Positions 11,665 through 52,558 of a stretch of DNA of 53,965 nucleotides are shown piece after piece; the first letter of the stretch is position 1; every line of letters starts with the position of its first letter. The notes beneath the pieces are model-generated. The model saw nothing but the letters and a program-made list of their open reading frames with translations, ran no database searches and was not told where the DNA came from. The translations under genes were made by a program, and so were the position numbers. Source of the DNA: an uncultured Saprospiraceae bacterium (GTDB lineage Bacteria > Bacteroidota > Bacteroidia > Chitinophagales > Saprospiraceae); NCBI GenBank assembly GCA_938016265.1, contig CALLWB010000057.1, forward strand, positions 1-53,965. The letters run 5' to 3'.

Positions 11665-11689
11665 AATTTTTCTCGAAATAAACGTTATC

Positions 11690-30006: not shown

Positions 30007-31179
30007 TTAATTAGTCAAGATTGGTGGGGAAATTTCTGTTCGGACAAAGAGAAGGTGCGCAACCTCTTTATTAGGATGTTCTAAGGTATATTCAAATTTT
30101 GAAAGAATTATTTTTTTGATAAAATCAGCAATCCCTATTGCTAGCTTATCGTCCACCGATTTGTTGTCATACGACAGGGCAAGGTGATACAAAACACCGT
30201 TTACTGTTTTGACTTTTCCTCCCGAAATATTTAGTCCCTTACTTGTTTTAAATACGTTGATGTTGGATGGAGTTAACGTCTTGTGGTCGTGTATCGTATT
30301 GATTTTTGAGGAAGCGAGGTACTGCTTGACAAAGTTCGCAATTTCTTCAAAGTGCTCTGGTGACGTAACCTTGTAACTAGCAAAGTGTTTAGGAATTACT
30401 ACTCTCAGGATTAAAACCATTGGAACTAATGCAGCAGCAACAATAAAGTGCCAGCCATGAAAAGGAATCCAACCATTCCATTCACTAATCAATAAAAAGA
30501 CAATCAGAAATCCAGTCGTCCATTGAGCTTCTGACAATCTGAACAAAGTAGGCCGACCACCATCCCAACGCAAAAACTCAATCAGTATCCGATAAGCGCC
30601 ATACAAAATGGTATACAAACCAAGTGCCGTGCCGGCAGGAGCACCAGTCAGCAATAAACAAGCCCCCGAAACAACAACCGTAGCAACCCAAGCCGACTCT
30701 AATAACTGGACTGGCAGCAAGGGTATGTTTTCTAAATGATCAGGAAATCCAGCCGCTTTATGCGCATGATTATAACAAACACCAATAGCGCTTGGAATAC
30801 CATAACAACAGCCAACAGAAAAACAGCCGATCCGCCCAAAGGCAAGAAATGCACCTATCCCAAGCAGATTAATCTCCAGATAAGGAAGTACTGGATACCC
30901 GAATAATTGGAGTAGGAGTACCGAAAAAACTAAAATCCCAATTTCATGACGATAATAAACCAAAGTCTCTTCACCAGTAAAAATTTTGGTAGCCATTGCC
31001 TGAAAGAAAAACATAAAGATGCCGCCCGCTCCCAACAGCAAGATCACCAACGGAGCAAGTTGCAACTGGGCAGCCAACCAAACTCCTCCTAGCAAACCTA
31101 CCAAATACCCCAGCACTCCAAAGAAATGAAAAGCGTAAATCCGTTTCCCAAAAAAAGGAATGTAGATTGGCGGCGTCAT
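30007..31179 (-). CDS. Lgt-like integral membrane protein with cysteine-rich motif and C-terminal soluble domain
   Basis: 390 aa with about seven hydrophobic segments in the first 265 residues, then a soluble domain of about 120. GRIGCFSVGCCYG, PVQLLESAW and YRILIEFLRWDGG sit where prolipoprotein diacylglyceryl transferase has GRIGNFINGELYG, PSQLYE and its second Arg-containing motif. The Glu of GELYG is Cys here and the HGG motif is absent, so the canonical Lgt reaction is doubtful. It is a divergent Lgt-superfamily member. Its start overlaps the stop of the upstream lipoprotein gene by 4 bp (ATGA), which shows translational coupling. Confidence 0.78.
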   Translation of the reverse strand: MTPPIYIPFFGKRIYAFHFFGVLGYLVGLLGGVWLAAQLQLAPLVILLLGAGGIFMFFFQAMATKIFTGEETLVYYRHEIGILVFSVLLLQLFGYPVLPYLEINLLGIGAFLAFGRIGCFSVGCCYGIPSAIGVCYNHAHKAAGFPDHLENIPLLPVQLLESAWVATVVVSGACLLLTGAPAGTALGLYTILYGAYRILIEFLRWDGGRPTLFRLSEAQWTTGFLIVFLLISEWNGWIPFHGWHFIVAAALVPMVLILRVVIPKHFASYKVTSPEHFEEIANFVKQYLASSKINTIHDHKTLTPSNINVFKTSKGLNISGGKVKTVNGVLYHLALSYDNKSVDDKLAIGIADFIKKIILSKFEYTLEHPNKEVAHLLFVRTEISPPILTN

Positions 31180-31787
31180 TTTCGATCTATTGGGATACGA
31201 CGCTTAGATTCTTTGGCCATTGGAGAGTCGATAAAGGTCCCGGCTTCCATTTTTGGATAGGCGTATATTCGTAATACCTCATTGGTAAGTTCACTGATGT
31301 GAAACGTGAGACCCCGGTTTGCATACACCCATTGTTCGTGAAATGCCATAATCAAAGATGGAATTTTTGTTTCTGGTTCTCCTAGCTGCTGCATCAATAT
31401 TTCTGTTTTTATAGCAGGAGAATTTACTTGTAAAGCGAGTATTTTATCCTCCTCCTTCCAGACTTTCAAACCATAGGGATACGTTTTGGTATCCGGGTAA
31501 ACTCTGAATTTGGTAAGTGTGCCTCCTAATGAGGCGATCCCATCTTCGCCCGGACCGCTTGGCCCAAAAGCCAGTTCTACCTCTGCTGTACTCAAATTGG
31601 AAGGGAGCCCAACCCAGGAGGCATAATCGCCAGATGCGAAAGCTTCCAGAAGTTGGATCGTTTCGTTTTTCATAGTTTTTTTGTTTATGCTTTTCTTGTC
31701 TTGTTTTGACTGTTCTCTGTTGTTTAGTTCAGGTTGACAACCGAAGGTGCAACACAGTGCAAAAGTTAATAAGATCAATCGATCCAT
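31176..31787 (-). CDS. Hypothetical lipoprotein between eCIS-core and Lgt-like genes
   Basis: Signal MDRLILLTFALCCTFGC with lipobox TFGC (Cys17). The mature protein has a Lys/Gln-rich linker, then a compact domain with SWVGLPSNLSTAEVELAFG, YPYGLKVWKEEDKILALQV and HEQWVYANRGLTFHIS. This suggests an alpha/beta domain of the kind found in small immunity or accessory lipoproteins, but I recognise no family. It starts 3 bp after the eCIS-core gene and overlaps the Lgt-like gene by 4 bp, so all three are one transcript. Confidence 0.75.
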   Translation of the reverse strand: MDRLILLTFALCCTFGCQPELNNREQSKQDKKSINKKTMKNETIQLLEAFASGDYASWVGLPSNLSTAEVELAFGPSGPGEDGIASLGGTLTKFRVYPDTKTYPYGLKVWKEEDKILALQVNSPAIKTEILMQQLGEPETKIPSLIMAFHEQWVYANRGLTFHISELTNEVLRIYAYPKMEAGTFIDSPMAKESKRRIPIDRK

Positions 31788-31790
31788 AGG

Positions 31791-34544
31791 TTAATGTTTT
31801 GGTATAAGTAGGCGCTGTCCTGCAGTAAGTGATGACCAGGTTACAGAAGGGTTTGCCGCTCGTAGTTCGGCTTCCAGTACCCCATTTTGCTTTGCGATCT
31901 GGTCTATGGTCTCTACGACAGAAGTAGTACCATCCCCTGCTTCCACGACCAAATGCTCCCTGCAACCTGGCAGATTTAATTTGGAAGGTAAGGAACTTCC
32001 TGTCAAAGAAGGGTTGGCTGCACGAATTTCTGCTTCCGTCAGGCCAGAAGCCGAAGCAAGAGCTGTAAGGGTAGATATACCACTAGGAATTGTAAACTCG
32101 TTTTCCTTGCCAATAGCCACCGGCGTGGTGATAAACGTCCCATCCGGGTTTAATCCGATGTACTCGACATGGCCTTGGAAGAATGCTGCTTTAACTGCTC
32201 GTTTTCCTTCAGCACCACCAATGATATTATCTCTAATTTTTTCTGCATGGGTAACATACCTTGCATATTCACCGGAACTGTAAGGCCCGATCATGGCTGC
32301 AGTCGGAGGGGAATAATCTCCACCTTCTACTTTTTTACACAAAGCCTTGTCTGATGGTATATTCGGTATTAAGGGAGCTAAAATTTCTTTGGTAAACATT
32401 TCACAAAATCCTTCAAACATGACTCTTGAATCTACATGGCCTGCATCTCTTGCTTTTAAAAATGCAGGATGTTCCAGTTTGTGCATATACTCGTGAACTA
32501 GCGTTTTAAATGTTTGCCATTTAGCAGATCGTTCTGCTGGAGAAGGTTCACCTCCGGTACTCGTATCTGACAAGGAGTCATTAATGCTGGTAGGAACAAC
32601 AACACCATTTCCTGATATAGCAAATCCAAACAAGTCATATTTTTCGAGATTAACCCGATTAGCTGCAACAAAGGGAGTTAAAACTTCAGTCAGGTAAAAG
32701 TTTTTTTCATCGCCCCTACTATTTTGATTGAAGTGATGTCGTTGCTGGACAGCTTGAGCTGCATTATCCGTATTAGAAATCCAGCCTGCTAGGTCTGCAG
32801 GATCCAGAGGAAAACCAGCTCTTGTCCTTTCAGCAGGATCATAGGCATCGAATAGAGTTTGCCCAGTCCCAGAACCATTAAACGTAAATCCGGCCAAGTG
32901 GCTACTTTGACTAGGAGTAAATGCTGCTGTCGATGTAAAATCTCCAAAGGCAGTATCTACCTTTTCTTTTGCGGCATTGCCTGCGCCAGCCAATTCTGTT
33001 ACAGGTAGTCTCCGTATAGAAGCGGTGGCGTTGATGCGGGGCATTTCACTGTTTAAGTGAGCCTGCATTGCTGCGGTCAGATCGTTCTTCAACTGCAGCC
33101 TTTTGGCTCGTATCGCTGGAGTGATGCCTGTTGCAGGAATAATTCCATCCCAGGAGTGATGCGTTACGGTCGGAGGTGCTGTCGGTGCTGGAGAAGGACC
33201 ACTTGGTGTTGGTGCTGGGGTGACAGTAACAGAGCCAGGTGCCAGCTCGTTTTGCAGATTTGGCTGGTCCGCAGCATTTGGTAGCTCTAGACCTTCATGT
33301 TGGTCGGCATGTCTTACTGGGGTAGGAGTAGGAGTTTTCTTTTTCTTTTCACACCGTTGCAGTTGCAAGCCAGATTTCATGCCTGCGGTAGTTTTGCCTC
33401 CTAGTTTGCTTGCAAACTCCTTTGATTTTCCCCAAATTTGGGCGACTACACCCACTGCTCGTTCGTCCGCATCAACTTCTAAATCATTGTAAGCCGCCTC
33501 ATTTCCTTTTTGTTGAAGCGCTTGAGTTGCCCCTCCTTTTTGTTGCTCGACATGTGCGAGTTCGTGGGCGATCAGTGCATCTCCAACCAGAGTGCCGGGT
33601 TGGTATTCAGCAGAATTAAAAACAATATCTTTTCCTATCGTGAATGCTTTTGCATTTTGCTGCTCTGCTAGCTTTGCCGAATTACTGTCTTGGTGGATCC
33701 GCACATCAGAAAAGGAAGTACCGAAGGCAGTTTCAAATTTTTTGAGGGAGCTACCTGCGATAGCCTGTCCACTTCCAATCTGGCTTTGGACATCAGCTAC
33801 GGAGGACTCGCCGTCTTCAACCGATGAACTATTGTTTTCTTTTCGTTGAATACCATTAGCCGTGTTTTCTTGTGGTTCGTTGGTTGCCGTTGCTTGTTCG
33901 GCAGCCTCTTCTTGTTCTTCTTCCTGGTTGGTGGCCCATTCTTTTATTGAGGCACCAACTTTCGCTGTGATGATTGGAATATATTCTTGAGCAGAACTGA
34001 CTCTGCCTGGGCCTATTCCGAATCGTTGGATGGCGCGTTCGATGTGGGCGGCACTTTTGTTTTCGTAGTGGTTGAACCAGTGCTGTAGCCAGGGGCAACC
34101 GACGACGGACCAGATAGTACCAGCTAACACTTGGTCAGAAACGGCAGTAACTTCCTTCTTGAGTTGGGCAAGGAAGTTCGATTTGGTCATTTGACCAGGC
34201 AGTAACTCTTGCATGCCATCACTAACAAGATAATTGACTTGATTGTTAGTTGGGGAAGTCGGCGTACCCTCCTCTTCTTTCTTTTGAATTTGTTGATTAT
34301 GCGAACCGAATTGGTAGGGGCTTATTTCATTTTTTGGAGTTGTATCAGATTTCGTTTTAGCTTGGACGAATTGATAAGGCTCTGGCGGCTTAGGAGACTC
34401 CTCCCCATCAGCACCACTGCTAGTAATTTTGGAGGGTGGCAGCATACCTGCTCTTTTATCTTCATTTTCCCCTTCCACTACGTTTGCATTCGCCTGGGCT
34501 TTTTTCTGAAGACTATCGTCTTTTTTATGAGATTTCATAACCAT
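31791..34544 (-). CDS. eCIS-core (DUF4157) protein with second HExxH domain and two LysM modules
   Basis: 917 aa, no signal peptide. Domains in order: disordered Gln/Lys-rich N-terminus (1-110); a conserved helical block with GCPWLQHWFNHYENKSAAHIE (about 135-200); a DUF4157/eCIS-core domain (about 255-345) with HELAHVEQQ at 327-335; a Pro/Thr linker (402-460); a second domain with HEYMH at 684-688 and FEGFCEMF at 710-717, a zinc-peptidase-like arrangement; and two LysM-like repeats (about 815-915, each with AEIRAANPS or AELRAANPS). DUF4157 marks proteins linked to extracellular contractile injection systems and other toxins. No injection-system structural genes are seen in this window. First gene of a three-gene unit. 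Confidence 0.85.
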   Translation of the reverse strand: MVMKSHKKDDSLQKKAQANANVVEGENEDKRAGMLPPSKITSSGADGEESPKPPEPYQFVQAKTKSDTTPKNEISPYQFGSHNQQIQKKEEEGTPTSPTNNQVNYLVSDGMQELLPGQMTKSNFLAQLKKEVTAVSDQVLAGTIWSVVGCPWLQHWFNHYENKSAAHIERAIQRFGIGPGRVSSAQEYIPIITAKVGASIKEWATNQEEEQEEAAEQATATNEPQENTANGIQRKENNSSSVEDGESSVADVQSQIGSGQAIAGSSLKKFETAFGTSFSDVRIHQDSNSAKLAEQQNAKAFTIGKDIVFNSAEYQPGTLVGDALIAHELAHVEQQKGGATQALQQKGNEAAYNDLEVDADERAVGVVAQIWGKSKEFASKLGGKTTAGMKSGLQLQRCEKKKKTPTPTPVRHADQHEGLELPNAADQPNLQNELAPGSVTVTPAPTPSGPSPAPTAPPTVTHHSWDGIIPATGITPAIRAKRLQLKNDLTAAMQAHLNSEMPRINATASIRRLPVTELAGAGNAAKEKVDTAFGDFTSTAAFTPSQSSHLAGFTFNGSGTGQTLFDAYDPAERTRAGFPLDPADLAGWISNTDNAAQAVQQRHHFNQNSRGDEKNFYLTEVLTPFVAANRVNLEKYDLFGFAISGNGVVVPTSINDSLSDTSTGGEPSPAERSAKWQTFKTLVHEYMHKLEHPAFLKARDAGHVDSRVMFEGFCEMFTKEILAPLIPNIPSDKALCKKVEGGDYSPPTAAMIGPYSSGEYARYVTHAEKIRDNIIGGAEGKRAVKAAFFQGHVEYIGLNPDGTFITTPVAIGKENEFTIPSGISTLTALASASGLTEAEIRAANPSLTGSSLPSKLNLPGCREHLVVEAGDGTTSVVETIDQIAKQNGVLEAELRAANPSVTWSSLTAGQRLLIPKH

Positions 34545-35095: not shown

Positions 35096-36232
35096 TTACC
35101 CCAACGGTTCCAACTGTTTTTTACTAATCAAAAAGGCCAATCCACTTACTCCCAGAAATGTGATAGGAAGGACGGCAATAATCGCCGATAGTTCGAAATC
35201 ACTGACGGTGGAGTAGTAGAAGAAGAAAAATACGGTGGCTAGAGGGATAAAAGGCAATGCTCCCCAAGACAAGATCCGAGACCAGGATTTGCGGAACGGG
35301 AAAGCCACTAGTAAGATAACAGAAACAACAGTAGCCATCAAATAAAACGGGGTAACTCCTTGAGGGTAGATGGAGTTGTACTCTAGGGAGGTAACCGTCA
35401 CGGCGATGCAAAGAATGAAGTGCAAAAAACCAAGTATAAATACCTTTGCATAGCCAATTTGGGCAATCATGAATAGGAGTGCTGGAAGAAACAGGAGTCC
35501 AAAAAACAATAGGTAGCCTAATGCTCCTTGCATCTGAGAAAACCCATTGTATGTTGATTTGAATGGGGTATTGTTTACGTAATAATTTGCTTTTTTGATG
35601 GAGCGCATCCGATCATTTACCAAATCGCTGTCGAATTCCAGTTTTATGGTTTCCTTTTTTGAGTAGGCTCCGGGTACTGCAATTGCTGGGGCTACGTGAT
35701 AAAAGTCTAAGACTTCGTTGATTTCTTCCAGACCAGAGGCGTCTTTTTTATAGATGGAAGAATTGTAACCTTTACCATATAAGACACCGTGTTTTGCAAG
35801 GATTCTTTCGTGTACTTCTATTTGTTCTACGCTAGCATGAGCGGCTATTTGGCTGGTGGTGCTACTGTTTAGCGTGTATAAGTTGGTCGCCAAAGAGAAA
35901 ATGCAAAAACCATACAAGGCAAAGGTGGCCAGTGTTGCTGCAAATGAGGTGCTTCTTACTTTGAATTTTTGCTGGTCATAACTCCAGGCGAGCAGCACAA
36001 AAACGGCCAGTGCGGTTGTTATTACAAAATTTAGCGAAATGCGTTCCTGTATGGGCAGTGCCCCTAATAATCCCGCAATTTTCGGTAAAACAAAGGCCGT
36101 AATATTCCCGATAAGGAAAGAAAAAAACAGAAAATAGTGCGCCCGCGTTCTCCATATCAATGGATAGTTGGTCAGCAAATAGTGGTCTGCAGTTTTGAAA
36201 AAAATCGGGATCAGTCGTTGCAAATAGTTCAT
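35096..36232 (-). CDS. Tandem polytopic membrane protein, paralogue 5 of 5
   Basis: 378 aa. It starts MNYLQRLIPIFFKTADHYLL with the shared PLIWRTRAHYFLFFSFLIGN segment leading into the first membrane helix. Two further helices follow, then a loop of about 110 residues and five C-terminal helices. It is the most divergent copy together with paralogue 4. The gene is 9 bp after paralogue 4. No family name is known to me; a permease-like partner of the ABC ATPase at 40.7-42.0 kb is inferred from operon structure. Confidence 0.8.
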   Translation of the reverse strand: MNYLQRLIPIFFKTADHYLLTNYPLIWRTRAHYFLFFSFLIGNITAFVLPKIAGLLGALPIQERISLNFVITTALAVFVLLAWSYDQQKFKVRSTSFAATLATFALYGFCIFSLATNLYTLNSSTTSQIAAHASVEQIEVHERILAKHGVLYGKGYNSSIYKKDASGLEEINEVLDFYHVAPAIAVPGAYSKKETIKLEFDSDLVNDRMRSIKKANYYVNNTPFKSTYNGFSQMQGALGYLLFFGLLFLPALLFMIAQIGYAKVFILGFLHFILCIAVTVTSLEYNSIYPQGVTPFYLMATVVSVILLVAFPFRKSWSRILSWGALPFIPLATVFFFFYYSTVSDFELSAIIAVLPITFLGVSGLAFLISKKQLEPLG

Positions 36233-36241
36233 AGGTACGAG

Positions 36242-37384
36242 TTAAACTGTTTCAGGTAATCTATCTTTAAACAGATTGAAATAAGTAAATGTTGTACACA
36301 AAGCCATGATAAGTATCAAAACCAAGAGCAGCAACCCATTATTGAGCGCATCAAATTCGAGCATGGCAAAGCCAATACTGATCGTAGGCAATAGTAACGT
36401 CGCTATGCCCGTCACCAGTGCATTGATGGTGGTTTTTCTTTTGAGAAAGAAGGGGAGTACTGTAATAATTGGTAAGGTAATATAGCAAGTGCTTTCAAAA
36501 CTCAACCCTACCCGACTGCCTATAAACATAAACGTAACCAGACTCAAGAAACCACCAAACACCAACTTCACAACCATCAAACTACTCGTCTGCGCCAATA
36601 AGAAAATCAAGGTGGATCCAAGTGCAATAAAAAATATAGAAAACCGCCAGAAACCTTTGAGATGAGAAGAATAGATGGCTGTTGGGTTGTAATAGCAGTC
36701 GGAAGCGTAGGAGCTGTCTCCTAGAAAATTGCTGCCATCAAAATGTTTGACATAATACTTCGCGGAGTTAAGGGAGTGCATTTTGTTGGATAGCTCGTTG
36801 ATCAAATCCATATTTTGCTTAGGATTGTATCTGTCGTAGCTGTATTGAATTTGCGGATAGCCATATTTGGCAGACATCTCTCTGAGGTATTTGTTGTTGA
36901 GGTTGTATTGGGTATAGTTGTCCACCTCAAAAGTGTAGGTGCGAATTTGCTCAAGTATTGGTTCGTCTTGTTGGTATTCTTGATCGTCTACCATCGTGGC
37001 AATCTTTGAAACTAACGTACTTTGGAATAGGCCGGCATTGATCACAAACGAGGACAAACAAAGAATAATCAACGGTATGAAAAGCACTTTTCGAATGGGA
37101 CTGACGGCTTGCAATGGAAATTTGCGTTGCTCAAAAGCATACCACAGCCCTGCAAATCCACATAAAATACAGGCGATGGTAAATAGGGTATACACCGTTG
37201 CCGTACCAGGGATATTTGTGATCGACATCGGATACGCACTTGCCAATCCATAAGCCCCAAGATTCCCCAAAATCAAGGAATAAAACGCGACATAATGGAT
37301 TTTCGATTTCCACAAAACCGGGTAACGAGTCAGCAAATAGTGGTCTGCTTTTTTCAAGAATCCGGGGACAAGTTTGTCAAGCAT
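36242..37384 (-). CDS. Tandem polytopic membrane protein, paralogue 4 of 5
   Basis: 380 aa. MLDKLVPGFLKKADHYLLTRYPVLWKSKIHYVAFYSLILGN keeps the family N-terminus. The loop between helices 3 and 4 is Tyr- and Asn-rich (YTQYNLNNKYLREMSAKYG). The membrane pattern of three plus five helices is the same as in the other copies. It lies 60 bp after paralogue 3 and 9 bp before paralogue 5. Confidence 0.82.
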   Translation of the reverse strand: MLDKLVPGFLKKADHYLLTRYPVLWKSKIHYVAFYSLILGNLGAYGLASAYPMSITNIPGTATVYTLFTIACILCGFAGLWYAFEQRKFPLQAVSPIRKVLFIPLIILCLSSFVINAGLFQSTLVSKIATMVDDQEYQQDEPILEQIRTYTFEVDNYTQYNLNNKYLREMSAKYGYPQIQYSYDRYNPKQNMDLINELSNKMHSLNSAKYYVKHFDGSNFLGDSSYASDCYYNPTAIYSSHLKGFWRFSIFFIALGSTLIFLLAQTSSLMVVKLVFGGFLSLVTFMFIGSRVGLSFESTCYITLPIITVLPFFLKRKTTINALVTGIATLLLPTISIGFAMLEFDALNNGLLLLVLILIMALCTTFTYFNLFKDRLPETV

Positions 37385-37444
37385 AAGGTGTTTATTTTTA
37401 ATGATGTTGTTAATGGTTGTATGGTGCGATTGTTATAGGATGCA

Positions 37445-38536
37445 TTAATTAATTTTTGGTTTGATGATGCGCCGGTGCATAAAATAAAGTATAGAAGAAG
37501 ATAGTAAAACACTAGAAATCCCTAGTACAACCATAGTTGTCAAATACATAGAATGTCGGTAAGTAGATTGATCCATGTAGCTAATAAATAAGGTGATCCC
37601 CAACATTGTAGCCATCATGCTAAACAAATAGATGGTCCATTTATGGTTTCCTTTTGTCAACAAACCTACCAATATCAAGCAAACGGAAAGGAAACTATAA
37701 GAGGAGGCAGGCTCGAAACGGACTAATTCTGAAGCAAAAATTGCTCCTATTAAAACGAGCACCTGATGGAATATTGTATGCAGCAATGCAGAAAATTTTA
37801 CCCTGGATATTAGCAGTAAACAAAACGGTATTGCCAGGAATCCGATTAGGCTGAATATATAAAAAAGATGGTAGGTGCTATTGTAGTAATTGACAAATTC
37901 ATTGTAATGATTTTCGAGGGCGTTGTTTGGGTAACTTTCCAGCTGACCTTTTGCCTTATAGATTTTCCATAGTTTTGCATTAAGTGCGGAGAAGGATATT
38001 GGAATGTTTTTAGGTTTTTTAACTTGATATCTTTCAAACATATGCTCTTCTTGGAACAGGACTTCTACTCCTCGAAACAGAATTTCCTGATTTTCTTTAG
38101 AATCCACATAACCTATATCCTTCTTAAATTGTACATCATTTACCAAGTTTGCAATCTGGTATTGGACAGCCGTATTAAAGTTCAACACATTAAACCATAT
38201 AGAAATCGTCCCAGCAAAATAGAGAAACCCTGTCAGCAGATATGCTGCAAAACTACTAGCACGTAGTTTTACTTTATATGTGGAATAGCTCCACCAAATC
38301 AACCCAAAAGCCGCTATGATGGTAGATAAAAAAAATAGCATTTCCAGCGTGTCATTGCTCGGTATTTCCTCCATACTCACCGGATACAACAACCCCAAAC
38401 CAACCGCCACAACATTCCCCACGATCAATGAATAAAACGCCACAAAATGGATCTTTGTCCTCCAAATCACTGGATGATTTTTGAGCAGAAACTGGTCTGC
38501 GCGTTTTAAAAATCGAGGGACAAGTTTTTGTAGCAT
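37445..38536 (-). CDS. Tandem polytopic membrane protein, paralogue 3 of 5
   Basis: 363 aa. The ATG at 38536 is chosen because it restores the family start MLQKLVPRFLKRADQFLL; the longer frame adds 22 residues, MLQLLFFIYLENV and onward, and overlaps paralogue 2. It shares IWRTKIHFVAFYSLIVGN and YFAGTISIWFNVLNFNTAVQYQIANL with paralogue 1. The order is three helices, a loop of about 110 residues, then five helices. Confidence 0.83.
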   Translation of the reverse strand: MLQKLVPRFLKRADQFLLKNHPVIWRTKIHFVAFYSLIVGNVVAVGLGLLYPVSMEEIPSNDTLEMLFFLSTIIAAFGLIWWSYSTYKVKLRASSFAAYLLTGFLYFAGTISIWFNVLNFNTAVQYQIANLVNDVQFKKDIGYVDSKENQEILFRGVEVLFQEEHMFERYQVKKPKNIPISFSALNAKLWKIYKAKGQLESYPNNALENHYNEFVNYYNSTYHLFYIFSLIGFLAIPFCLLLISRVKFSALLHTIFHQVLVLIGAIFASELVRFEPASSYSFLSVCLILVGLLTKGNHKWTIYLFSMMATMLGITLFISYMDQSTYRHSMYLTTMVVLGISSVLLSSSILYFMHRRIIKPKIN

Positions 38537-38540
38537 ATTT

Positions 38541-39626
38541 TTAGTTGATTTTTGGGGTAATAGCACGTTTTCCAAATAGATAAAGAACAACAGTTGCAGC
38601 AACTATACTCGCAAATCCGTACAAAAGCATCGTGGAAAAATACATCGTCATCGGATACTGCATTTGCTCCATATAAATAACAAACAACGTAATACCAAGC
38701 ATCGAAGCCAGCATGGAAAGGGCAATAGGTGTCCATTTACGATTGCCTTTAGTCATCAATATCGCTAAGCCTAAACAAGCAGAGAGTAAACTGTAGTAAG
38801 ATATCGGTTCCAACCACCTTAGCTCTTCTGTGAACCAGATGGCTCCAAATAAAACTAGTACTTGGCAAAATATAGTTAAGAATAAAACGGAAAGTCGGGC
38901 AGTCGATATCAAAAGCAAGCAAAACGGGATTGTCATAAATCCAACCAAGCTAAACATATAGAAAAGTTGATAGGTAGAATCATAGGAAATCCAGGTGGAC
39001 TGGTTATTAAATTCTGGATTGTAATTTGGATAGTTAGCAATAAAATGTTGAGCGAACAAGATTTTTTGAAACTTCCTTTCCAATTTGTAATTGTAATGTT
39101 TTAGGTCAGGCGTTTGGACGTATGTGTTTATTTTGTACTTTGAAAAAATGGAAGTGGGGTAATACAAATCTTTCGATTTTGAGAAATCATAAGTCCCTGA
39201 ATTCATATCTACTTCAAGTTGATTTTCCTCTTCTAAGTGGGCTATCTGTATCTGAATAGCGGAGTTCAAATTAAGCACATTAAACCAAATAGAAATCGTT
39301 CCAAACAAATACAATAAGCCGGTAATCACATAGGTTTTAAAACTACCTGATCTCAATGGCACCTTATATTGCGAATAGCCCCACCAAATCAATCCAAAGG
39401 CTGCCAATGCACAAGAAACAAGCATTAGCATTTCAAGCAGGTCACTGTTAGGAACTTCCTTCATACTTACCGGATACAACAATCCCAAACCAACTACTCC
39501 AATAGTCCCCAATATCAACGAATAAAACACCACAAAATGGATCTTCGTTCTCCAAATCAAAGGATGATTTTTGAGCAGAAATTGGTCTGCACGTTTTAAA
39601 AATCGAGGGACAAATTTTTCAAGCAT
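38541..39626 (-). CDS. Tandem polytopic membrane protein, paralogue 2 of 5
   Basis: 361 aa. MLEKFVPRFLKRADQFLLKNHPLIWRTKIHFVVFYSLILG is almost identical to paralogue 3 over the N-terminus, as is the DNA. The central loop is different and charged (HLEEENQLEVDMNSG). Its ATG directly follows the stop of paralogue 1 (no spacer), so translation is probably coupled. Confidence 0.84.
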   Translation of the reverse strand: MLEKFVPRFLKRADQFLLKNHPLIWRTKIHFVVFYSLILGTIGVVGLGLLYPVSMKEVPNSDLLEMLMLVSCALAAFGLIWWGYSQYKVPLRSGSFKTYVITGLLYLFGTISIWFNVLNLNSAIQIQIAHLEEENQLEVDMNSGTYDFSKSKDLYYPTSIFSKYKINTYVQTPDLKHYNYKLERKFQKILFAQHFIANYPNYNPEFNNQSTWISYDSTYQLFYMFSLVGFMTIPFCLLLISTARLSVLFLTIFCQVLVLFGAIWFTEELRWLEPISYYSLLSACLGLAILMTKGNRKWTPIALSMLASMLGITLFVIYMEQMQYPMTMYFSTMLLYGFASIVAATVVLYLFGKRAITPKIN

Positions 39627-40712
39627 CTAAGCGGGTTTTAAAGTTAATCGATTTAGAAAAAAGAGAACGATGGATGCGCAGGCAGAGCTGGTTAATCCTA
39701 GCATCACCATTTTTGTGAAATGCATTTGAGCAGGGTAGTAATACCCGGAAGAAATATTAACAATAAACAATCCAATAGGTACTGTAGACGCAATCAGGGT
39801 ATATATATAAATTGACCGCCTCCTGTTTCTAAAAGTGAGCAACGCGGCTAGCATAAGAACTAAAAGTTGCCAAAAATAAAACGTGGGCAACTCGGTTCCG
39901 AACCATTCCATAGACATCAATGCGCCAATGAATAAAATTACCTGGAAAAAGATAGTCAACAACAAGTCCGAAAACTTGATTTTTGAAAGTAGCAATAAGG
40001 TCATCGGCAGCGCCATAAAGCCAAGCAATGCCATGTAGTAAAACTCAAGTATGGGGCCCATTCGTCTTGAATGGTAGCGATGGGGCCTTCCTACAAAATT
40101 AGGATACTGTTTGACTTGGATCTTTGCACATTGGATTACTGGAAAAATTTTCTTTAGTCTATTCCTTTTGACTATCCATTGTTCGATAGGCTTAAGAACT
40201 TCTATTTTTTTAGGGATGTTATACCTTGCATAAACCAAATCCATCCGATTAACTAAAGCCAATTCCCCACTAAAACCTGAAGTTATTTTTTCATCTCGTT
40301 CCAATTGTGCATCGTCCACCAAATTTGCGATTTTATATTTGACAGCGGTATTAAAATTCAATACATTAAACCATATAGAAACCGTCCCAGCAAAATAGAG
40401 CAAACCAGTAAGCAAATAGACACGAAATTTTCTCGATTGAAGTTTCATTTTATACTGAGAATATCCCCAGAAAATCATAGCAAAACCAGCTAACGTGCTA
40501 CTAGCAATCAATAATAAATCAAACGTGTCACCAGGAGGCAAATCCAAAACATCAATCGGATACAACAAGCCCAAACCAATCGCCCCAACATTCCCCAAAA
40601 CCAATGAATAAAATACCACAAAATGGATCTTCGTTCGCCAAATCAATGGATGGTTTTTGAGCAGAAATTGGTCTGCACGTTTTAAGAAATTGGGAATTAA
40701 TTTATCAAGCAT
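39627..40712 (-). CDS. Tandem polytopic membrane protein, paralogue 1 of 5
   Basis: 361 aa. The N-terminal amphipathic stretch (IPNFLKRADQFLLKNHPLIWRTK) precedes helix 1, as interface helices do in ABC-2-type permeases. Helices 2 and 3 (FDLLLIASSTLAGFAMIFWG; VYLLTGLLYFAGTVSIWF) are followed by a loop of about 100 basic residues (about 120-220), then five helices. No signal peptide. It lies 20 bp after the ABC ATPase gene. The permease role is an inference. Confidence 0.83.
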   Translation of the reverse strand: MLDKLIPNFLKRADQFLLKNHPLIWRTKIHFVVFYSLVLGNVGAIGLGLLYPIDVLDLPPGDTFDLLLIASSTLAGFAMIFWGYSQYKMKLQSRKFRVYLLTGLLYFAGTVSIWFNVLNFNTAVKYKIANLVDDAQLERDEKITSGFSGELALVNRMDLVYARYNIPKKIEVLKPIEQWIVKRNRLKKIFPVIQCAKIQVKQYPNFVGRPHRYHSRRMGPILEFYYMALLGFMALPMTLLLLSKIKFSDLLLTIFFQVILFIGALMSMEWFGTELPTFYFWQLLVLMLAALLTFRNRRRSIYIYTLIASTVPIGLFIVNISSGYYYPAQMHFTKMVMLGLTSSACASIVLFFLNRLTLKPA

Positions 40713-40732
40713 TATGCTATTTTACAAAAGGT

Positions 40733-41953
40733 TTAAACAAACAGCTTCTTAGTAGACTGACTGATATTTCTAAAATATTCGATCTCAATACCTGCCGCCA
40801 GAAATTTAGCCAACAGCTCATTGTAAGTAACGTGCAAAGGGGTAGAAATGATATATTCCTGACCCGTATTTTCTATATGATAATACTCCAACCCTGCTAG
40901 CCGTTTTTCAATTTCTTCCAGGGAAAGCATCGTCTTAAACTCAAAGGTGTTATCGTCGCGCTCCTTGCCTAGTTCATTCGTTTTGCCATAATACACCACT
41001 TCTCCATTTCGCATGAAAATAATGTTGTCGCTCACATTCTCGATCTCATGCAAATGCTGTGAACTAATCACAATGCTCAGCGGATACCGATAACTATTGG
41101 CCAGGTCCCGCAAATCATTCAAAATGACCAATTGTGCCTTGATGTCTAGATTGGCTAAGGGCTCGTCGATGACCAGAAATTTGGGTTTCCAGACCAGCGC
41201 CCGCGCCAAAGCAAACCGCAACTTATACCCACCCGACAGCTGACTCCAGCTCTTATTCTGATGCTCCTCCAGCCCCAGTCGATAAATGATATAATCCACC
41301 TCATCATCATTCTCCTGTCCCTTTATACCATGAATTGCCAATTCGTAATGCAGATTATCCCGCACGGAGCCAAACCACTTAGGAATGTCTTGCGAAATAA
41401 ACGCAATTTCCTGCTTGATCGCTCCCCAGTCAAACTCCTGATTTGGTAAATCCTGCTGGATATATGGATAGCGGATCTGCCCTTCATCCGAAGCCAGTTC
41501 GCCTACTAATATTCTAAATAAGGTGGTCTTTCCATTCCCATTCTCTCCTACAACGCCGGTTATTTCTCCTAGGCTAAACGAGACATCAATGTTTGCCAGA
41601 TTGAACCCGCTTTTTCTAAACGTTTTCGATATTCCTTCTGTTTGGCAGACGATTTTAGGTGTGGCGACTACACTTTGGTTTGGTGCTTCCTCCTCGATGT
41701 GTACAGGCAGTTCTGCTTCTGGCAGATCGCTGATGGATTGCACGAGGCCTTCCATTTCCTTCACCAATTGTTGTCGGTGTCTGGGGTCGGTGGCGCTGCT
41801 GTAGTTCAGTTTTAGCACCAGTGCTCTGTGCAATTGATGATTATCGCTGGCGTATTCCATCGCAAACTCCACAAAACCTGCCGTTGCGCTTGCCGGATCT
41901 GCTTGTAGTAGTCTGGTTACTTCGGCCGCTTGTATTCGCACATTATTCTCCAT
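40733..41953 (-). CDS. ABC transporter ATPase with extra N-terminal helical domain
   Basis: 406 aa with one nucleotide-binding domain. Walker A GENGNGKTT (136-144), signature LSGGY (239-243), Walker B FLVIDEP (259-265) and H-loop His300 are complete, so ATP hydrolysis is expected. The C-terminal 60 residues resemble those of ABC-2 exporter ATPases. Unusually, residues 1-85 are a separate helical domain, and an acidic/Pro linker (about 78-100) joins it to the NBD. That domain resembles the 89-aa protein encoded just upstream. Single NBD and the operon partners argue for a membrane exporter rather than ABC-F. Confidence 0.88.
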   Translation of the reverse strand: MENNVRIQAAEVTRLLQADPASATAGFVEFAMEYASDNHQLHRALVLKLNYSSATDPRHRQQLVKEMEGLVQSISDLPEAELPVHIEEEAPNQSVVATPKIVCQTEGISKTFRKSGFNLANIDVSFSLGEITGVVGENGNGKTTLFRILVGELASDEGQIRYPYIQQDLPNQEFDWGAIKQEIAFISQDIPKWFGSVRDNLHYELAIHGIKGQENDDEVDYIIYRLGLEEHQNKSWSQLSGGYKLRFALARALVWKPKFLVIDEPLANLDIKAQLVILNDLRDLANSYRYPLSIVISSQHLHEIENVSDNIIFMRNGEVVYYGKTNELGKERDDNTFEFKTMLSLEEIEKRLAGLEYYHIENTGQEYIISTPLHVTYNELLAKFLAAGIEIEYFRNISQSTKKLFV

Positions 41954-42009
41954 GTCTTTTTTTTAGTAGTAGGTATTCATACATTTAAAATATTCACTCA
42001 TTCTAGCAT

Positions 42010-42279
42010 TCAAGCATTATTCAAAGAGACATCATCAATCAACTCTAACAGCTGAAAAACAAGCGGATTTTTCTTCGTATTGTCCATAGTAGTTGCTCCA
42101 TCTTGGAACGCTCTGCTTAATTCGATGGCTCTGCGCATGGGCGTACGGTCGGCAGCGAAATCGCGAACAAAATCCATGGTTCGCTTGGCTGCTTTATTGA
42201 GATTGTTTGATGCGATGAGCAACTGTATTTCTTCCTTTCGTGTTTCGATATCCATTCTTGGTATGGTTACAATATTCAT
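42010..42279 (-). CDS. Small helical protein related to the ABC ATPase N-terminal domain
   Basis: 89 aa, fully helical-looking. ETRKEEIQLLIASNNLNKAAKRT and DFVRDFAADRTPMRRAIELS are amphipathic. By eye DFAADRTPMRRAIEL aligns with EYASDNHQLHRALVL of the ATPase N-terminus, with matching spacing to an upstream E-x-x-x-L-L block, so the two may share one fold. Its look recalls the effector-associated helical domains of bacterial conflict NTPases, but this is only resemblance. First gene of the seven-gene operon. Confidence 0.7.
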   Translation of the reverse strand: MNIVTIPRMDIETRKEEIQLLIASNNLNKAAKRTMDFVRDFAADRTPMRRAIELSRAFQDGATTMDNTKKNPLVFQLLELIDDVSLNNA

Positions 42280-46486: not shown

Positions 46487-49315
46487 TTATTGAATAATTA
46501 ATTTTTCAACTAATAACGAATGTTCTGTTTCTACAGAAATAAAATAAACACCAGCATCCAACAGGTCAGCTTCAAAAGAAATCCTTCGATCTCCTGATGC
46601 CTGATAGTTAGTTAGCAAGTTAGCAACTTTCTGCCCCATCAAATTTAACAAACTTATTTTAACTGTCCCTGCCTCAGAAAGCATATAATTTAGGAACACT
46701 TTGTCCGTAGCAGGATTTGGGTAAACCGTTAGATTTTCCAGTACTTCAGCAGACAGATTTTCGTTGCCCACCATAGTAGAAGACAGAACGGGAACAGGCA
46801 AAGGCTGGTCGGTATATATATGGTATTCACCAGGATCCAGACTAATCTGATCATTTACATTATTGACTTGAATACTTGCTCCAGTAAAATAATTGTACCA
46901 GGTGCCAGTATGCTGAAAATTAGGATCAATACTATTAGGAACAACATTGAAGTTACCAATAACGGTAGCATTCATGGCGGAATGATTTAGGTTGATCCGC
47001 TTAGTTGCACTACCTACATCCATACTATAGTTGGTGGTTCGGAAAGTATCATAATCCTTCAAATCAATCAACGCCTTGTAAACATGGTACAACCGATTGC
47101 GGTCGTTTTCCTGCAAATATTCCCAATGCAAAGGTTTCTCGTCCAACCGACAGTTAGGATCTATTGTCACCCCATCAGAGCAAAGGTTGATGCTTTCATC
47201 ATACCCCAATTCACCAAACTGCCAAATCATTTTTGGCCCCGGAATCGTAAAGAAAAAAGAACCGACCAATTCCTGACGAGCCAAAGCAGTCGTCAAATCT
47301 TTTACATTATAATTGCCATTATTGTTTCCAAACTCCAGGTTTTTATACATCAGTCTTTCTTCATCATGGCTTTCCATAAAAGTGACTAGATGCGGGTCAG
47401 ACCAACCTCTACTTTGATAAGAATACCAATTTAGATTGGAATTGTATCCCATACTTCCTTCATTGTAGTCATGATTGCCATTCCCCCAAATCAAAATTCC
47501 ATAGTTGGACAAATCTTGCTCTTCACTATTATCCGTAAAATGTTCAAGGATCATATACGAGTCAGGAGACGCCGCCCACATGACATCCGCCATCCTTTTT
47601 ATCAAGGCAACTCTGGAAGCATCGTAAGCTGCCCAGCCGCCGATATCACAATTCCCGCCTGTATTGTCACAAGTCTGATTTTGCGTAAACCCTTTCGCCA
47701 AATCAAAGCGAAATCCATCTAGCCGAAATTCAGTCAACCAATATTTCATCACTCGATCAACAAAGTCCTTAGTAGCTTGCGCCTCATGGTTGAAGTCAGA
47801 TCCTACATTAAAACCGTGCTTTGGATATTCGTTCAGCCAAGGATTGTCTGCTGCAGGTACAAAGTCCGCAGAATTCCAGTACAACTGGGCAAAAGGACTT
47901 TGGCTAAAAGCATGGTTGTATACAACATCTGCCACAACAGCAATCCCTCGGCTATGCGCCGCATCAATAAACGCTTTGAAGTCATCCGCCGTACCATAAT
48001 ACTTGTCCAACGCCATGTGAAAGGAAGGATTGTAACCCCAACTATTGTTGCCTTCAAACTCGTTGATCGGCATCAATTCGATGACATTCACGCCAAGTGT
48101 TTCTAAGTAATCCAAACTATCCATCAATGTCTGGTAATTCTGATTCCCTACGAAATCACGAATAAGCAATTCATAAACAACCATATCCGTTTTTTCCGGG
48201 CGTTGGAAGTTAGTGGTTTGCCAATTGTAAGGTGTTTTTCCTGGTTGTAATAAGGACACAATTCCGGTAGTTAGGCCATCTGGATAGGGGTGAAGGTTTG
48301 GATACGTACTGCTTGGTATCCATTGGTCATTGTTTGGATCAAGAATGACTTCGCTATACGGATCTGCAATCTTCAAATCGCCGTCTACCAAGTATTGGAA
48401 TGCATATTCCTGTCCAGGAGTCAGTCCCGTCAGTTCAATCCACCAAGTGGCATTGTCCGTGCCTCTGTTCATAAAATAATTGACATCCGGTTCCCAGTTG
48501 TTAAAATCACCGATTACATAAACATTGTTTTTATTCGGTGCATACAGTTGTAAACGTACAGAGGAAGGGGAGAGGTAGTTGATACCCAGTTCCGTACCTG
48601 CAGGAGGATTTTGAGTGAGGATCGTTGGGTTGATTACATAAGTAAAGGTGTCTGATACGGTCATTCCACTTGCTTCTGCAGTCATAGTTACGGTGTGATT
48701 TCCTGTACCATTGACCGTAAGGTTATGCATCAATTCTGTCCCTGTTCCTTGAGCAATCTGTGTCCCATTATCAAAAATAGTCAGGGTCGAGTTGATCGAA
48801 GAAACAGCCGTGATTGGAATGACATCAGAGGTGCTGACAATCAATAGATCATCCCCAGGAGTACTAAAATTACCAAGCAACTGGCTGGAATTGCTAAAAA
48901 CAGGAATGAAAATATCACCTTCTGTCGCTGTTTTCCCAACCTTACTACCATCCGAATTTCTAAAAACAAACGCGAGCTCTAAAATGGTCTCACTCATCGG
49001 CACTCCATAAAAATTGCGAACATGGAAGGAAATCTCGTGCTTGTTATTTCCGATGTCGGTCATTAGTGTATTGGCGGAATTGACTCCCCACGGCGTATCA
49101 TAAAACCATTGGCCTGGCGCACTAAGATTGGTAATAACCCCAGTGTGCATATAGACAGGAGATTCTCCTAGAAGAGCGGCATTACCCTGAGTAGCATCGT
49201 AGGTGATAGTGATAATATCGGTATCTGTTGGGAATGCTGGAGAATAACTCACAATTTGGGCATTCACTGAAAAACAAACAAAAAAGAAGAATAAAAGATG
49301 GGAAAATTTAGACAT
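46487..49315 (-). CDS. T9SS-exported GH13 alpha-amylase with CBM-like domains
   Basis: 942 aa. Signal MSKFSHLLFFFFVCFSVNAQ; an N-terminal beta domain with PVYMHTGVITNLS (about 20-130); an Ig-like spacer; a CBM48-like domain (about 250-335, VYVIGDFNNWEP then YAFQYLVDGD); a GH13 barrel with DVVYNH (463-468), GFRFD with nucleophile Asp538, LEHF with Glu591, and ESHDEE with Asp651; and a C-terminal T9SS type A sorting domain (VYPNPATDKVF, ending VEKLIIQ). It should be exported and surface-attached or released, cutting long alpha-glucans outside the cell. The start at 49315 gives the signal peptide. Downstream of the starch-binding-like gene, with a terminator between. Confidence 0.94.
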   Translation of the reverse strand: MSKFSHLLFFFFVCFSVNAQIVSYSPAFPTDTDIITITYDATQGNAALLGESPVYMHTGVITNLSAPGQWFYDTPWGVNSANTLMTDIGNNKHEISFHVRNFYGVPMSETILELAFVFRNSDGSKVGKTATEGDIFIPVFSNSSQLLGNFSTPGDDLLIVSTSDVIPITAVSSINSTLTIFDNGTQIAQGTGTELMHNLTVNGTGNHTVTMTAEASGMTVSDTFTYVINPTILTQNPPAGTELGINYLSPSSVRLQLYAPNKNNVYVIGDFNNWEPDVNYFMNRGTDNATWWIELTGLTPGQEYAFQYLVDGDLKIADPYSEVILDPNNDQWIPSSTYPNLHPYPDGLTTGIVSLLQPGKTPYNWQTTNFQRPEKTDMVVYELLIRDFVGNQNYQTLMDSLDYLETLGVNVIELMPINEFEGNNSWGYNPSFHMALDKYYGTADDFKAFIDAAHSRGIAVVADVVYNHAFSQSPFAQLYWNSADFVPAADNPWLNEYPKHGFNVGSDFNHEAQATKDFVDRVMKYWLTEFRLDGFRFDLAKGFTQNQTCDNTGGNCDIGGWAAYDASRVALIKRMADVMWAASPDSYMILEHFTDNSEEQDLSNYGILIWGNGNHDYNEGSMGYNSNLNWYSYQSRGWSDPHLVTFMESHDEERLMYKNLEFGNNNGNYNVKDLTTALARQELVGSFFFTIPGPKMIWQFGELGYDESINLCSDGVTIDPNCRLDEKPLHWEYLQENDRNRLYHVYKALIDLKDYDTFRTTNYSMDVGSATKRINLNHSAMNATVIGNFNVVPNSIDPNFQHTGTWYNYFTGASIQVNNVNDQISLDPGEYHIYTDQPLPVPVLSSTMVGNENLSAEVLENLTVYPNPATDKVFLNYMLSEAGTVKISLLNLMGQKVANLLTNYQASGDRRISFEADLLDAGVYFISVETEHSLLVEKLIIQ

Positions 49316-49331
49316 AAAAAGGAGTTTGCAC

Positions 49332-49359
49332 AAAAAAAGCAACTATGGTTAATAGTTGC
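49332..49359 (-). terminator. Minus-strand terminator/attenuator between two alpha-glucan genes
   Basis: GCAACTAT and ATAGTTGC form an 8-bp stem with a 5-nt loop followed by seven T residues on the minus strand. It sits between the starch-binding-like gene and the amylase start only 17 bp further, so it either ends the first gene or lowers readthrough into the amylase. Confidence 0.75.
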
Positions 49360-49390
49360 TTCTTCTGCAATTTATAATTTTAAATTGATC

Positions 49391-50704
49391 TTACTGGATC
49401 ATAATTTTACTAGTGTGGAATTTGCCTTCTTCGTTTTTAAGCGTTGCAAAGTACAAGCCTGAAGACAATTCGTCTCTTGATATTCTTACTTGAGTACCTG
49501 TTAGGCCGGAAAGAGATTGAACAACTTTTCCGGTCAAGGAAGTAATGGTCAATTCATAGACATCATTGTTGGTATTTTCAAATTCGATAACTGCATCTGT
49601 GGAGAACGGATTTGGTGTTACTGAGAATGCAGCTAGTGAATTCAAGTCTTTAGTTCCTGAAACAGAACAAGCCGAAGAAACGACACAAGAATTGTAGATG
49701 ACTGCATCAAGCACCATATCTCCAGTCAATCCGCTTAAATCAATATCTCTGTTTGATCCTCCAAAACCATTATCAGAACCACAAGATTCTGTAATGAAAA
49801 TTGGATCTTGTCCTTCAGCATCCGCATCTCCTTGATCGCCATTGAAAAATTTGAATTGGTACGTTCCTGCAGCTACAGGAGCAGTAAACTGATAGCAAGA
49901 AGTGGTACCAGGAACTAGCGTCATTTCCATTTGCGTTTTGCTCCAGGGACATTCTTGGAAGTTACCTGCCACAAAAAGTCCATTGCTGCTTATAATCTCA
50001 TTAGTCATATCGACTCTAAACGTAACGTTGTAGGTAGTACTTTTTAATGGGATTTCGTAGTTGGTAGTACCTGTAATTACTTGTGCATTATCTATCGAGA
50101 AAGAAGGGTTAGATCCTTGTATGACCCAAGAAGGGTCAGGACAATCCAAACGCTCAGCACCCCACTCATAGGTGTTGTTGGAAGTAGCGGATACCAATAA
50201 TGACCATACTCCATCGCCAGCAGTTACATCTCCGTTGGTCCCATCATCATACGCATTTTGAGACGACCAGCCTCCATAGCTACCTTTGAAAGAAATACTA
50301 TCAATGTCCATGTTGAGATCCGTTACGGTAAGTAAAACATCCGTCGGTACACCTACAGGGATCACATATTCTGTAGTGCCAGTTACTCCACCCGCCGCAT
50401 CGACGGTGAAAGAAGGGTTTGGCCCAGTAAGCAACCATGCAGCAGTAGTTGCATCTTCTGCTCCCCACTCGTACATGCCTGGTTGAGCCATAATTGTTAA
50501 AGACCAGATGTTGTCTCCTGCGGTGACATCTCCATTTGTACCATCATCCACAGCGGCTTCATTCATCCACCCATTGTAAGAACCACGGATATTCACTGCG
50601 GTTTGTGTCTGGGGGCCATCTGCAAGAGTTAACACAACAGGGAATTGTGCAAACACAGATGGAGCTAAAAGGATAAGGAAAAATAAAAATATAAAGTTTC
50701 TCAT
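49391..50704 (-). CDS. T9SS-exported protein with repeated starch-binding-like beta domains
   Basis: 437 aa. Signal MRNFIFLFFLILLAPSVFAQ. Two related beta domains (about 20-120 and 130-225) share GSYNGW or GSYGGW, DDGTNGDVTAGD, YEWGAE and PSFTVD or PSFSID. A third, different beta domain (VTFRVDMTNEIIS, then FVAGNFQECPW, then YQFKFFNGDQGD) looks like a starch-binding CBM20-type or related fold. A T9SS sorting domain closes the protein (VTPNPFSTDAVIEF, ending HTSKIMIQ). No catalytic residues are evident. Probably a surface glucan-binding protein; operator B lies upstream. Confidence 0.82.
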   Translation of the reverse strand: MRNFIFLFFLILLAPSVFAQFPVVLTLADGPQTQTAVNIRGSYNGWMNEAAVDDGTNGDVTAGDNIWSLTIMAQPGMYEWGAEDATTAAWLLTGPNPSFTVDAAGGVTGTTEYVIPVGVPTDVLLTVTDLNMDIDSISFKGSYGGWSSQNAYDDGTNGDVTAGDGVWSLLVSATSNNTYEWGAERLDCPDPSWVIQGSNPSFSIDNAQVITGTTNYEIPLKSTTYNVTFRVDMTNEIISSNGLFVAGNFQECPWSKTQMEMTLVPGTTSCYQFTAPVAAGTYQFKFFNGDQGDADAEGQDPIFITESCGSDNGFGGSNRDIDLSGLTGDMVLDAVIYNSCVVSSACSVSGTKDLNSLAAFSVTPNPFSTDAVIEFENTNNDVYELTITSLTGKVVQSLSGLTGTQVRISRDELSSGLYFATLKNEEGKFHTSKIMIQ

Positions 50705-51153
50705 TTTGTAAATGTTTGTAGTTATATAACAAGTTATTTAATGCAGCCAAGGCTTTACCATTGACTTTTAAGGAAATAGGGCTGGATGGCCAATTCCGCC
50801 AATCCAAAAAATGAGTAAATTCTTTGGATGTATTGGAATTCACAACATAAATATAAAAAGAAAGTGTCAAGTTTACACTTTCTATTTACCTTTTTTACTT
50901 TAATATGACAAATGCCTATTATTTGACTGGAAAAGCACTATTGGCAGGTGGAAAATTGAAGTTCATAGAAGATGTCCTTACTAAAGGAACAGGATTTTAT
51001 TATACCAAATACAACGATAACAGCAATGGTTCAGGTCCTTCTCCCTCTTATGGTTACAATTCAAGTAAAGGAATTAGTTCCAATACTACGGAGTGTAAGC
51101 CTATCTAGCGGTATTGACTTTTATTGGGCTACCCACATTTAAGATATACCGAT
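50705..51153. other. Intergenic region with operator B
   Basis: Contains the 50860-50882 palindrome. A 67-codon frame starting at 50905 on the plus strand has no ribosome binding site or family-like sequence and is not called. Nothing else is recognised. Confidence 0.5.
50860..50882. promoter_or_regulatory. Putative alpha-glucan operator, site B (best palindrome)
   Basis: A 23-bp inverted repeat with perfect 8-bp arms (GAAAGTGT and ACACTTTC); its core 50863-50879 is AGTGT-N7-ACACT. It overlaps the likely -33 region of the T9SS starch-binding gene (minus strand TTG at about 50873). On one strand it agrees with site A at 15 of 17 positions. Confidence 0.65.
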
Positions 51154-52275: not shown

Positions 52276-52558
52276 TATCGTATCAATATTATTTTTAGAG
52301 AAGAGTACGTTTTTTTCACTTTCGTGTAATATTTTATTAATCGTATACAAAGTATGTTCTGGAAATAAAGGTAGCATTCCAATAATAAACAAAGAAAACA
52401 GGATACGCAATCTAAAATTAGATATCAATTCCTAAATGAAGAATTTAGTCGTAATTATGGATAATATCCAAACCAAAATTTTCAAACGTAGATTCGTTGA
52501 TTTTGAAAAATTGTCTTTTACTGTTGGTAAAACCAAATAGCTAATTGGGAAATTGAAT

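Follow-up and report, generated by a model that had tools for sequence, protein, structure and literature searches.

A conserved ABC ATPase and membrane-protein gene pair in Bacteroidia: one motor, several membrane modules and a possible link to EAD11 effectors

The seven-gene operon

The window analyzed here is the whole 53,965-nucleotide contig CALLWB010000057.1 of assembly GCA_938016265.1 (here G000:C57; the genome comprises 7.44 Mb in 146 contigs), from an uncultured Saprospiraceae bacterium. Its minus strand carries an operon for a small protein resembling EAD11, an effector-associated domain (EAD), followed by an ATP-binding cassette (ABC) ATPase and five polytopic membrane proteins, M1 to M5, with eight predicted transmembrane (TM) helices each. 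A previous reading made from the letters alone, here called the sequence-only reading, had described a compact operon of seven genes, and all seven are in place as listed below, with intergenic gaps of 56, 20, 0, 4, 60 and 9 bp in the order small gene, ATPase, M1, M2, M3, M4, M5. The start of M3 is an ATG picked by alignment, the listed reading frame beginning at an upstream TTG. Promoter-like and terminator-like sites were fewer than in shuffled sequences.

42010-42279, minus strand: small EAD11-like gene, first of the operon (89 aa)
40733-41953, minus strand: ABC ATPase gene (406 aa; one nucleotide-binding domain and a C-terminal tail; ABC_tran, E 1.5e-25)
41699-41953, minus strand: helical N-terminal domain of the ATPase (residues 1-85), putatively a degenerate EAD11-like domain from group profile matches
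41057-41059, minus strand: codon of Gln299, at the H-loop (switch) histidine position in the alignment to ABCA3 and OpuCA
39627-40712, minus strand: M1 membrane protein (361 aa, 8 predicted TM helices)
38541-39626, minus strand: M2 membrane protein (361 aa, 8 predicted TM helices)
37445-38536, minus strand: M3 membrane protein (363 aa, 8 predicted TM helices)
36242-37384, minus strand: M4 membrane protein (380 aa, 8 predicted TM helices)
35096-36232, minus strand: M5 membrane protein (378 aa, 8 predicted TM helices)

Conservation of the ATPase and membrane gene pair

Whether the gene order recurs in related genomes was a check named in the sequence-only reading, and a two-gene core of ATPase and membrane gene is indeed kept. 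A profile of the N-terminal 140 residues of the membrane protein (A2, 14 modules) matched, at E 0.001, 24 of the 396 genomes sampled from the order and 43 of the 395 from the class, the window's genome being in both samples; two genomes of the same genus gave no match to the membrane protein. At 38 of 39 non-window loci the membrane gene starts between -104 and +85 bp after the family ATPase (longest reading frames), the exception being L121, at a distance of 990 bp. Twelve of 12 further class loci, fetched with ~1.5 kb of flank, also keep the pair, and the contig of L087 holds only the end of the ATPase gene. A search from the ATPase side through 296 genomes of the phylum found at least five genomes (the window's, three new ones and the already known G673), a lower bound with six candidates scored per genome, and the membrane gene lies beside the ATPase in all four of those other than the window's. 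Among the 42 non-window class genomes the pair was seen in 17 from the fetched stretches, in G673 and in 12 from the small loci, which are the 30 that the check covered. The 39-locus count leaves out four loci with membrane genes and no family ATPase (L022, L106, L110 and L114); also left out were G044 (E 6.6e-4, internal stops), L105 (the same DNA as L020) and G199, G121 and G125 (E 2.9e-4 to 4.9e-4; the flanks of G199 and G125 lack a family ATPase). One in-frame stop was present in four class matches and one order match (G189).

The pair also occurs in another phylum: the cyanobacterium Tolypothrix sp. PCC 7601 has it on a mobilizable plasmid, where the two genes overlap by 4 bp and the ATPase is 48.7% identical to the window's over 76% of the latter. 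Searching plasmids with the Tolypothrix membrane protein returned three records with one 100%-identical gene; the same search with the window ATPase returned at least 5000 records, a figure not to be taken as a count. When neighboring genes were clustered, surface-protein-like genes recurred in seven loci and a few further clusters spanned three to four loci, and three conserved neighbors recurred only in L020, L111 and L121, all of family f23. In L020 these shared neighbors lie at 6264-7751, 10518-12305 and 12406-13443; by eye, one resembles an HtrA-type protease and another an outer-membrane surface antigen.

This distribution bears on one simple explanation, that the genes encode a complex for housekeeping of the cell envelope and that its duplications are neutral. 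Such a complex would fit the mostly single-copy state of the membrane gene, the tendency of membrane proteins from one genome family to group in the tree, and the three further module neighbors shared by the f23 genomes. It sits poorly with the patchy occurrence in order and class, the lack of a match in the two same-genus genomes, a copy number that is not randomly scattered, and the presence of the pair outside the phylum on a mobilizable plasmid, and we consider it very improbable.

One ATPase and several membrane modules

The number of membrane modules per genome ranges from one to seven. Nine genomes hold several, with five in the window's genome (G000), seven in G005, three each in G374, G409, G705, G778 and G610, and two each in G523 and G596, all as lower bounds with at most ten candidates scored per genome. 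The family ATPase, by comparison, is single in eight of these nine and double in G005 (E 1e-70, all candidates scored), and the window ATPase is the only match at that threshold in its genome. G005, G409 and G705 have extra membrane genes (L022, L106 and L110) for which the fetched stretches, 15.3-18.0 kb long, show no family ATPase, and an extra membrane pair in G778 fills a whole 4.3-kb contig with no flank. The sequence-only reading had suggested that the five proteins might serve one ATPase as alternative subunits, either permeases or receptors. The comparison supports this, with a conserved core, one to seven modules and a mostly single ATPase all consistent with such subunits; as a whole, that interpretation is partly supported.

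EAD11 on the small gene and the ATPase N terminus

EAD11 serves as an adaptor in conflict systems predicted to act in bacterial immunity and cell death. On its own, the window's small gene matches Pfam EAD11 at E 0.035, below the cut-off; against a profile built from 20 EAD11 domains of other proteins it scores E 6.9e-4. In L021, L055 and L056 the corresponding small gene, likewise just upstream of the ATPase, passes the curated cut-off of Pfam EAD11 (PF19964). Compared as a group, the four small genes scored 98.2% against the 20 EAD11 domains and 96.0% against four other EAD11 domains, with at most 0.96% in 20 column shuffles. These profile comparisons show the small-gene family to be members of EAD11.

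The N-terminal domain of the ATPase is related to the same family with varying clarity. Two ATPases exceed the Pfam EAD11 cut-off in this region (L023, 7.6e-14; L059, 2.3e-11), and EAD11 was matched at E of 0.1 or lower in 5 of 23 ATPases. Seven sub-threshold N-termini, the window's included, scored as a group 97.2% against the small genes (at most 1.7% in 20 shuffles), 79.6% against the 20 EAD11 domains and 40% against the four; over the three group comparisons, with 20 column shuffles each, no shuffle exceeded 1.7%. The window ATPase thus probably begins with a degenerate EAD11-like domain. Where the ATPase domain is degenerate (window, L021, L055 and L056), a separate EAD11 gene precedes the ATPase; where it is strong (L023 and L059), no separate EAD11 gene was seen at the locus; and L062 has one weak copy of each. 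L057, L107 and L111 show EAD11 in neither place at E 0.01 with the 20-domain profile, while a profile that includes three ATPase N-termini matches their ATPases at 9e-13, 6e-4 and 7e-4, respectively.

EAD11, module copy number and effectors

EAD11 was found above the cut-off in 15 of 66 module genomes (10/21, 5/21 and 0/24 by sample). Several membrane modules occur in 8 of these 15 genomes, against 1 of the 51 others (G596; p 9e-6), and among genomes of at least 4.7 Mb in 8 of 15 with EAD11 against 0 of 11 without (p 0.007). At the level of the locus, EAD11 was detected in the ATPase or small gene (E 0.01, 20-domain profile) at 13 of 17 loci from EAD11 genomes and 1 of 23 others; the Tolypothrix plasmid is counted among the 17, and L113 (at a contig edge), L120 and L124, with short ATPase N-termini, were scored as misses.

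EAD11 is also carried by candidate effectors. Among the EAD11 proteins that the window's genome encodes away from the operon, one (L015) has EAD11 (1.6e-17), CHAT (2.5e-8) and a partial, sub-threshold TIR_2 match (0.002). On the Tolypothrix plasmid (L075; NZ_CP064890.1) an EAD11-trypsin gene at 8810-9895 adjoins the ABC pair, and the pair in G037 has beside it a TIR reading frame that leads into a fragment of EAD11 read in a different frame. As a separate observation, G211 holds a large EAD11 network, with 52 EAD11 matches at E of 1 or lower and listed open frames of 95 to 1488 aa.

Sequence and topology of the membrane proteins

A search with M1 retrieves the other four membrane proteins at E 1.4e-90 to 9.8e-21, bearing out their description as five paralogs. 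The sequence-only reading had further held that the helices stay similar while the loops differ, which is true of M1 to M3 and fails for every pair with M4 or M5. Among M1 to M3, pairwise identity is 56-67% in TM1-3, 34-56% in TM4-8 and 21-30% in the loop; once M4 or M5 is in the pair, identity in TM4-8 (13-21%) is about as low as that in the loop (16-25%). Over all five proteins the ranges are 23-67%, 13-56% and 16-30%, respectively. It is the first 31 residues that remain alike across all ten pairs (55-90% identity), and this shared segment would be a natural site for meeting a common ATPase.

Hydropathy predicts eight TM helices in each of M1 to M5. Judged by loop charge, the two termini lie inside, and the 103-129 residues that separate TM3 from TM4 lie outside; these calls come from a simple hydropathy and loop-charge script, not a trained predictor. 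With the same script, 10 of 12 relatives have eight helices, L023 has 16, from the fusion of two modules, and seven are predicted in the Tolypothrix protein; outside domains among the 12 reach 285 residues. The L023 protein (7689-11165, 1158 aa) contains two complete 8-TM modules in tandem and adjoins an ATPase with EAD11. In the tree, M1 to M3 form a close triplet (support 100/99), with M4 and M5 branching deeper. Duplicates group by genome in at least five places (window M1-M3, L021_1-3, L055_2-3, L023_m1-m2 and L107_1-2), and L106_2 and L110_2, from two genomes of one genus, pair with 99/98 support.

No convincing match for the membrane family was found in Pfam, NCBIfam, PADLOC or PHROGs. 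Pfam and NCBIfam recognize only the ATPase in the operon, and a curated cut-off was passed only with Pfam. PADLOC gave nothing for the three membrane proteins scanned or the small gene, PHROGs nothing for M1, M5 or the small gene, and viral contigs searched with the membrane profile no match. The ABC-2-like fold that the sequence-only reading expected the five to share finds no support in sequence: one of 36 membrane sequences matches ABC2_membrane_5, at E 0.042, and hhalign against ABC-2 permeases of the same genome gave 0.2-0.4%, with 0.2-0.3% for the reversed control, in a weak test of three and two sequences. One of the 36 relatives matches the receptor family 7TMR-DISM_7TM weakly, at E 6.8e-4. 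Against solved structures the membrane profile gave nine weak matches, the best to a potassium channel (4.5e-4) and another to NosY (0.012), all of which were judged to be chance matches between hydrophobic segments.

Lineage-specific tandem copies with divergent outside loops are what might be expected of a module that detects antimicrobial peptides or other envelope poisons, or rids the cell of them, in the manner of Bce- and Lan-type systems, in which each 8-TM copy would bind its own compound outside and the ATPase would release it or signal. A lantibiotic-protection model of the nucleotide-binding domain (NBD) is among the 25 generic matches listed for the ATPase. No regulator or resistance gene recurs in the neighbor clusters, however, and the 20 Pfam families that the 36 members match at E 0.1 include neither FtsX nor MacB, so that we regard such a module as unlikely.

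The ATPase motor

The ATPase family departs from the usual motor at one position. All 41 family ATPases examined carry Gln where other motors have the H-loop (switch) His (39 recognized by pattern, two by inspection). The alignment column gives the same residue in 55 of 55 family sequences, overlapping fragments included, and it is invariant in the 23-sequence family alignment A3; Gln299 of the window ATPase aligns to His in ABCA3 and OpuCA. Other ABC sequences in the loci have His in eight of the nine with a residue there, two of the eight being one gene fetched twice and the ninth being a weak partial match. The Walker A pattern (41 of 41) and the Walker B Glu (55 of 55) are both retained. 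The switch His is normally needed for fast ATP turnover, and because it is Gln family-wide, ATP binding or slow turnover acting as a switch is likelier than a fast pump. The best PADLOC match of the four ATPases scanned was mad3 (4.8e-24 for the window's), which was taken as generic ABC similarity.

An alternative reading is an ABC transporter, exporter or importer. Alternative membrane subunits would serve different substrates as in group II energy-coupling factor (ECF) transporters, the N-terminal domain would dimerize or regulate the ATPase, and its EAD11 likeness would be ancestral. Among solved structures, transporters such as ABCA3 match the NBD best, and the C-terminal tail of one family member matches DrrA1-3_C weakly (E 0.023). 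Against a transporter stand the Gln in all 41 ATPases, the lack of any convincing transporter membrane family by sequence, and a layout of eight TM helices with one large outside domain that differs from those of ECF and ABC-2 proteins. Several membrane subunits on one motor are nonetheless known for group II ECF transporters (PMC5997447).

Interpretation

The reading that we favor, at a probability of about 0.43, is a membrane ABC hub in which interchangeable 8-TM sensors share one ATPase, with EAD11 effectors in some lineages. The ATPase, probably as a dimer, would dock on any of the 8-TM subunits through their conserved N-terminal segment, and each subunit would present a different outside domain of 100-130 residues and so a different input. 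The ATPase would act as a switch, by ATP binding or slow turnover, rather than as a fast pump. In EAD11 lineages its state would be relayed by EAD11 domains on its N terminus or, as in the window, on the neighboring small gene, and these could pair with the EAD11 of effectors located elsewhere, for which the EAD11-CHAT protein of the window's genome is a candidate, and release them. The small EAD11-like gene may in this way make the system a device that connects many sensors to one motor. A bolder form, that the whole is an innate-immune or programmed-death relay running from many diversified membrane receptors through one non-canonical ABC ATPase to many EAD11 effectors, appears doubtful to us; if true, it would be an ABC counterpart of Death-fold receptor-adaptor-effector signaling.

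Several observations weigh against the hub. The core pair occurs without EAD11 in 51 of 66 genomes and must therefore have some role independent of EAD11. The window ATPase N terminus, taken alone, fails every single-sequence EAD11 test (E 4.6). The 20-domain profile was built from EAD11 domains of the same EAD11-bearing genomes that it was used to score, and the profile that includes three ATPase N-termini matches ATPases at 5 of 23 EAD11-negative loci as well as 11 of 17 others (E 0.01); the EAD11-negative ATPases as a group match the 20 EAD11 domains at 46%. The 15 EAD11 genomes lie in four families (f1, f2, f12 and f23), the multi-copy ones in f1 and f23 (plus G596), and EAD11-bearing genomes are larger; since genomes in so few families are not independent, the copy-number tests rest on few events, and the module counts are themselves lower bounds. 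An EAD11 effector gene lies beside the module in only 2 of 17 loci, and the ten scanned neighbors in the window, which include starch enzymes and cell-surface proteins, contain no defence gene.

Because most genomes with the pair lack EAD11, the transporter comes close behind as a tentative alternative. The EAD11-like N-termini of some EAD11-negative ATPases (L064, 8.3e-4, and the five loci matched by the second profile) also favor it, and since one of the two EAD profiles matches those five loci, the hub and the relay were rated slightly lower and the transporter higher. A transporter leaves unexplained the separate EAD11 gene and the tie between copy number and EAD11. The EAD11 link and the loss of the H-loop His are additions beyond the sequence-only reading.

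Comparison with known systems

The NTP-dependent conflict systems linked to EADs are described with cores based on MoxR-vWA, STAND or GTPase proteins (PMC7159879, PMC8195603). Three of their features, as described in these papers, recur here. A small helical EAD is borne by a component of the NTP-driven core, as in the L023 and L059 ATPases and, by group profile only, the window's; a second EAD copy lies in an adjacent gene, as with the small genes of the window, L021, L055 and L056; and EAD-fused TIR, CHAT or trypsin proteins are encoded nearby or elsewhere, as with the protein at L015. Unlike those systems, the core here is an ABC ATPase with polytopic subunits. The word ABC does not occur in the main text of either paper, supplements aside, and an ABC-based EAD core was not found in the literature covered, a scope outside which lie subscription journals, supplements and bioRxiv preprints. 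In the same literature EAD11 appears only in papers on other subjects, judged by title, and PF19964 was not found.

In group II ECF transporters some membrane subunits are encoded away from the ATP-driven module. Like them, the present system combines one ATP-driven module with several membrane subunits, here by gene count (PMC5997447). In place of the EcfT coupler and two EcfA ATPases described for that group, a single family ATPase is present in eight of nine genomes and no EcfT-like third gene recurs, nor any third gene across the loci outside f23, no family search for EcfT having been made. The eight predicted TM helices, the large outside domain and the extra EAD11 gene are further differences. 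Exporters of the ABC-2/DrrA-NatA-GldA kind likewise combine a membrane gene with an adjacent gene for a single NBD that has a C-terminal tail. Our family differs from them in an outside domain set between the third and fourth of its eight TM helices, in the Gln that replaces the H-loop His and in the lack of ABC-2 homology detectable by sequence. FtsX/MacB-type complexes have an FtsX-family domain and four TM helices, in contrast to eight by hydropathy here.

Should the hub be real, an ABC ATPase would join the cores that use effector-associated domains, EAD systems would have a membrane-facing sensor, and a many-to-one receptor layout would be seen to grow by tandem duplication. Even as a transporter only, the system would offer a membrane family without database assignment, a family-wide H-loop substitution and one motor serving several subunits.

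Genomic neighborhood

The operon lies within a starch-use neighborhood that extends on both sides (3984-9528 and 46487-52428), with three Alpha-amylase genes and with MFS and starch-binding esterase genes. Adjoining the operon, the minus-strand stretch 30007-34544 encodes a 917-aa protein with eCIS_core (7.8e-27) and LysM matches; next come a 203-aa gene that Pfam does not match and a gene of the LGT family, the three possibly forming one unit.

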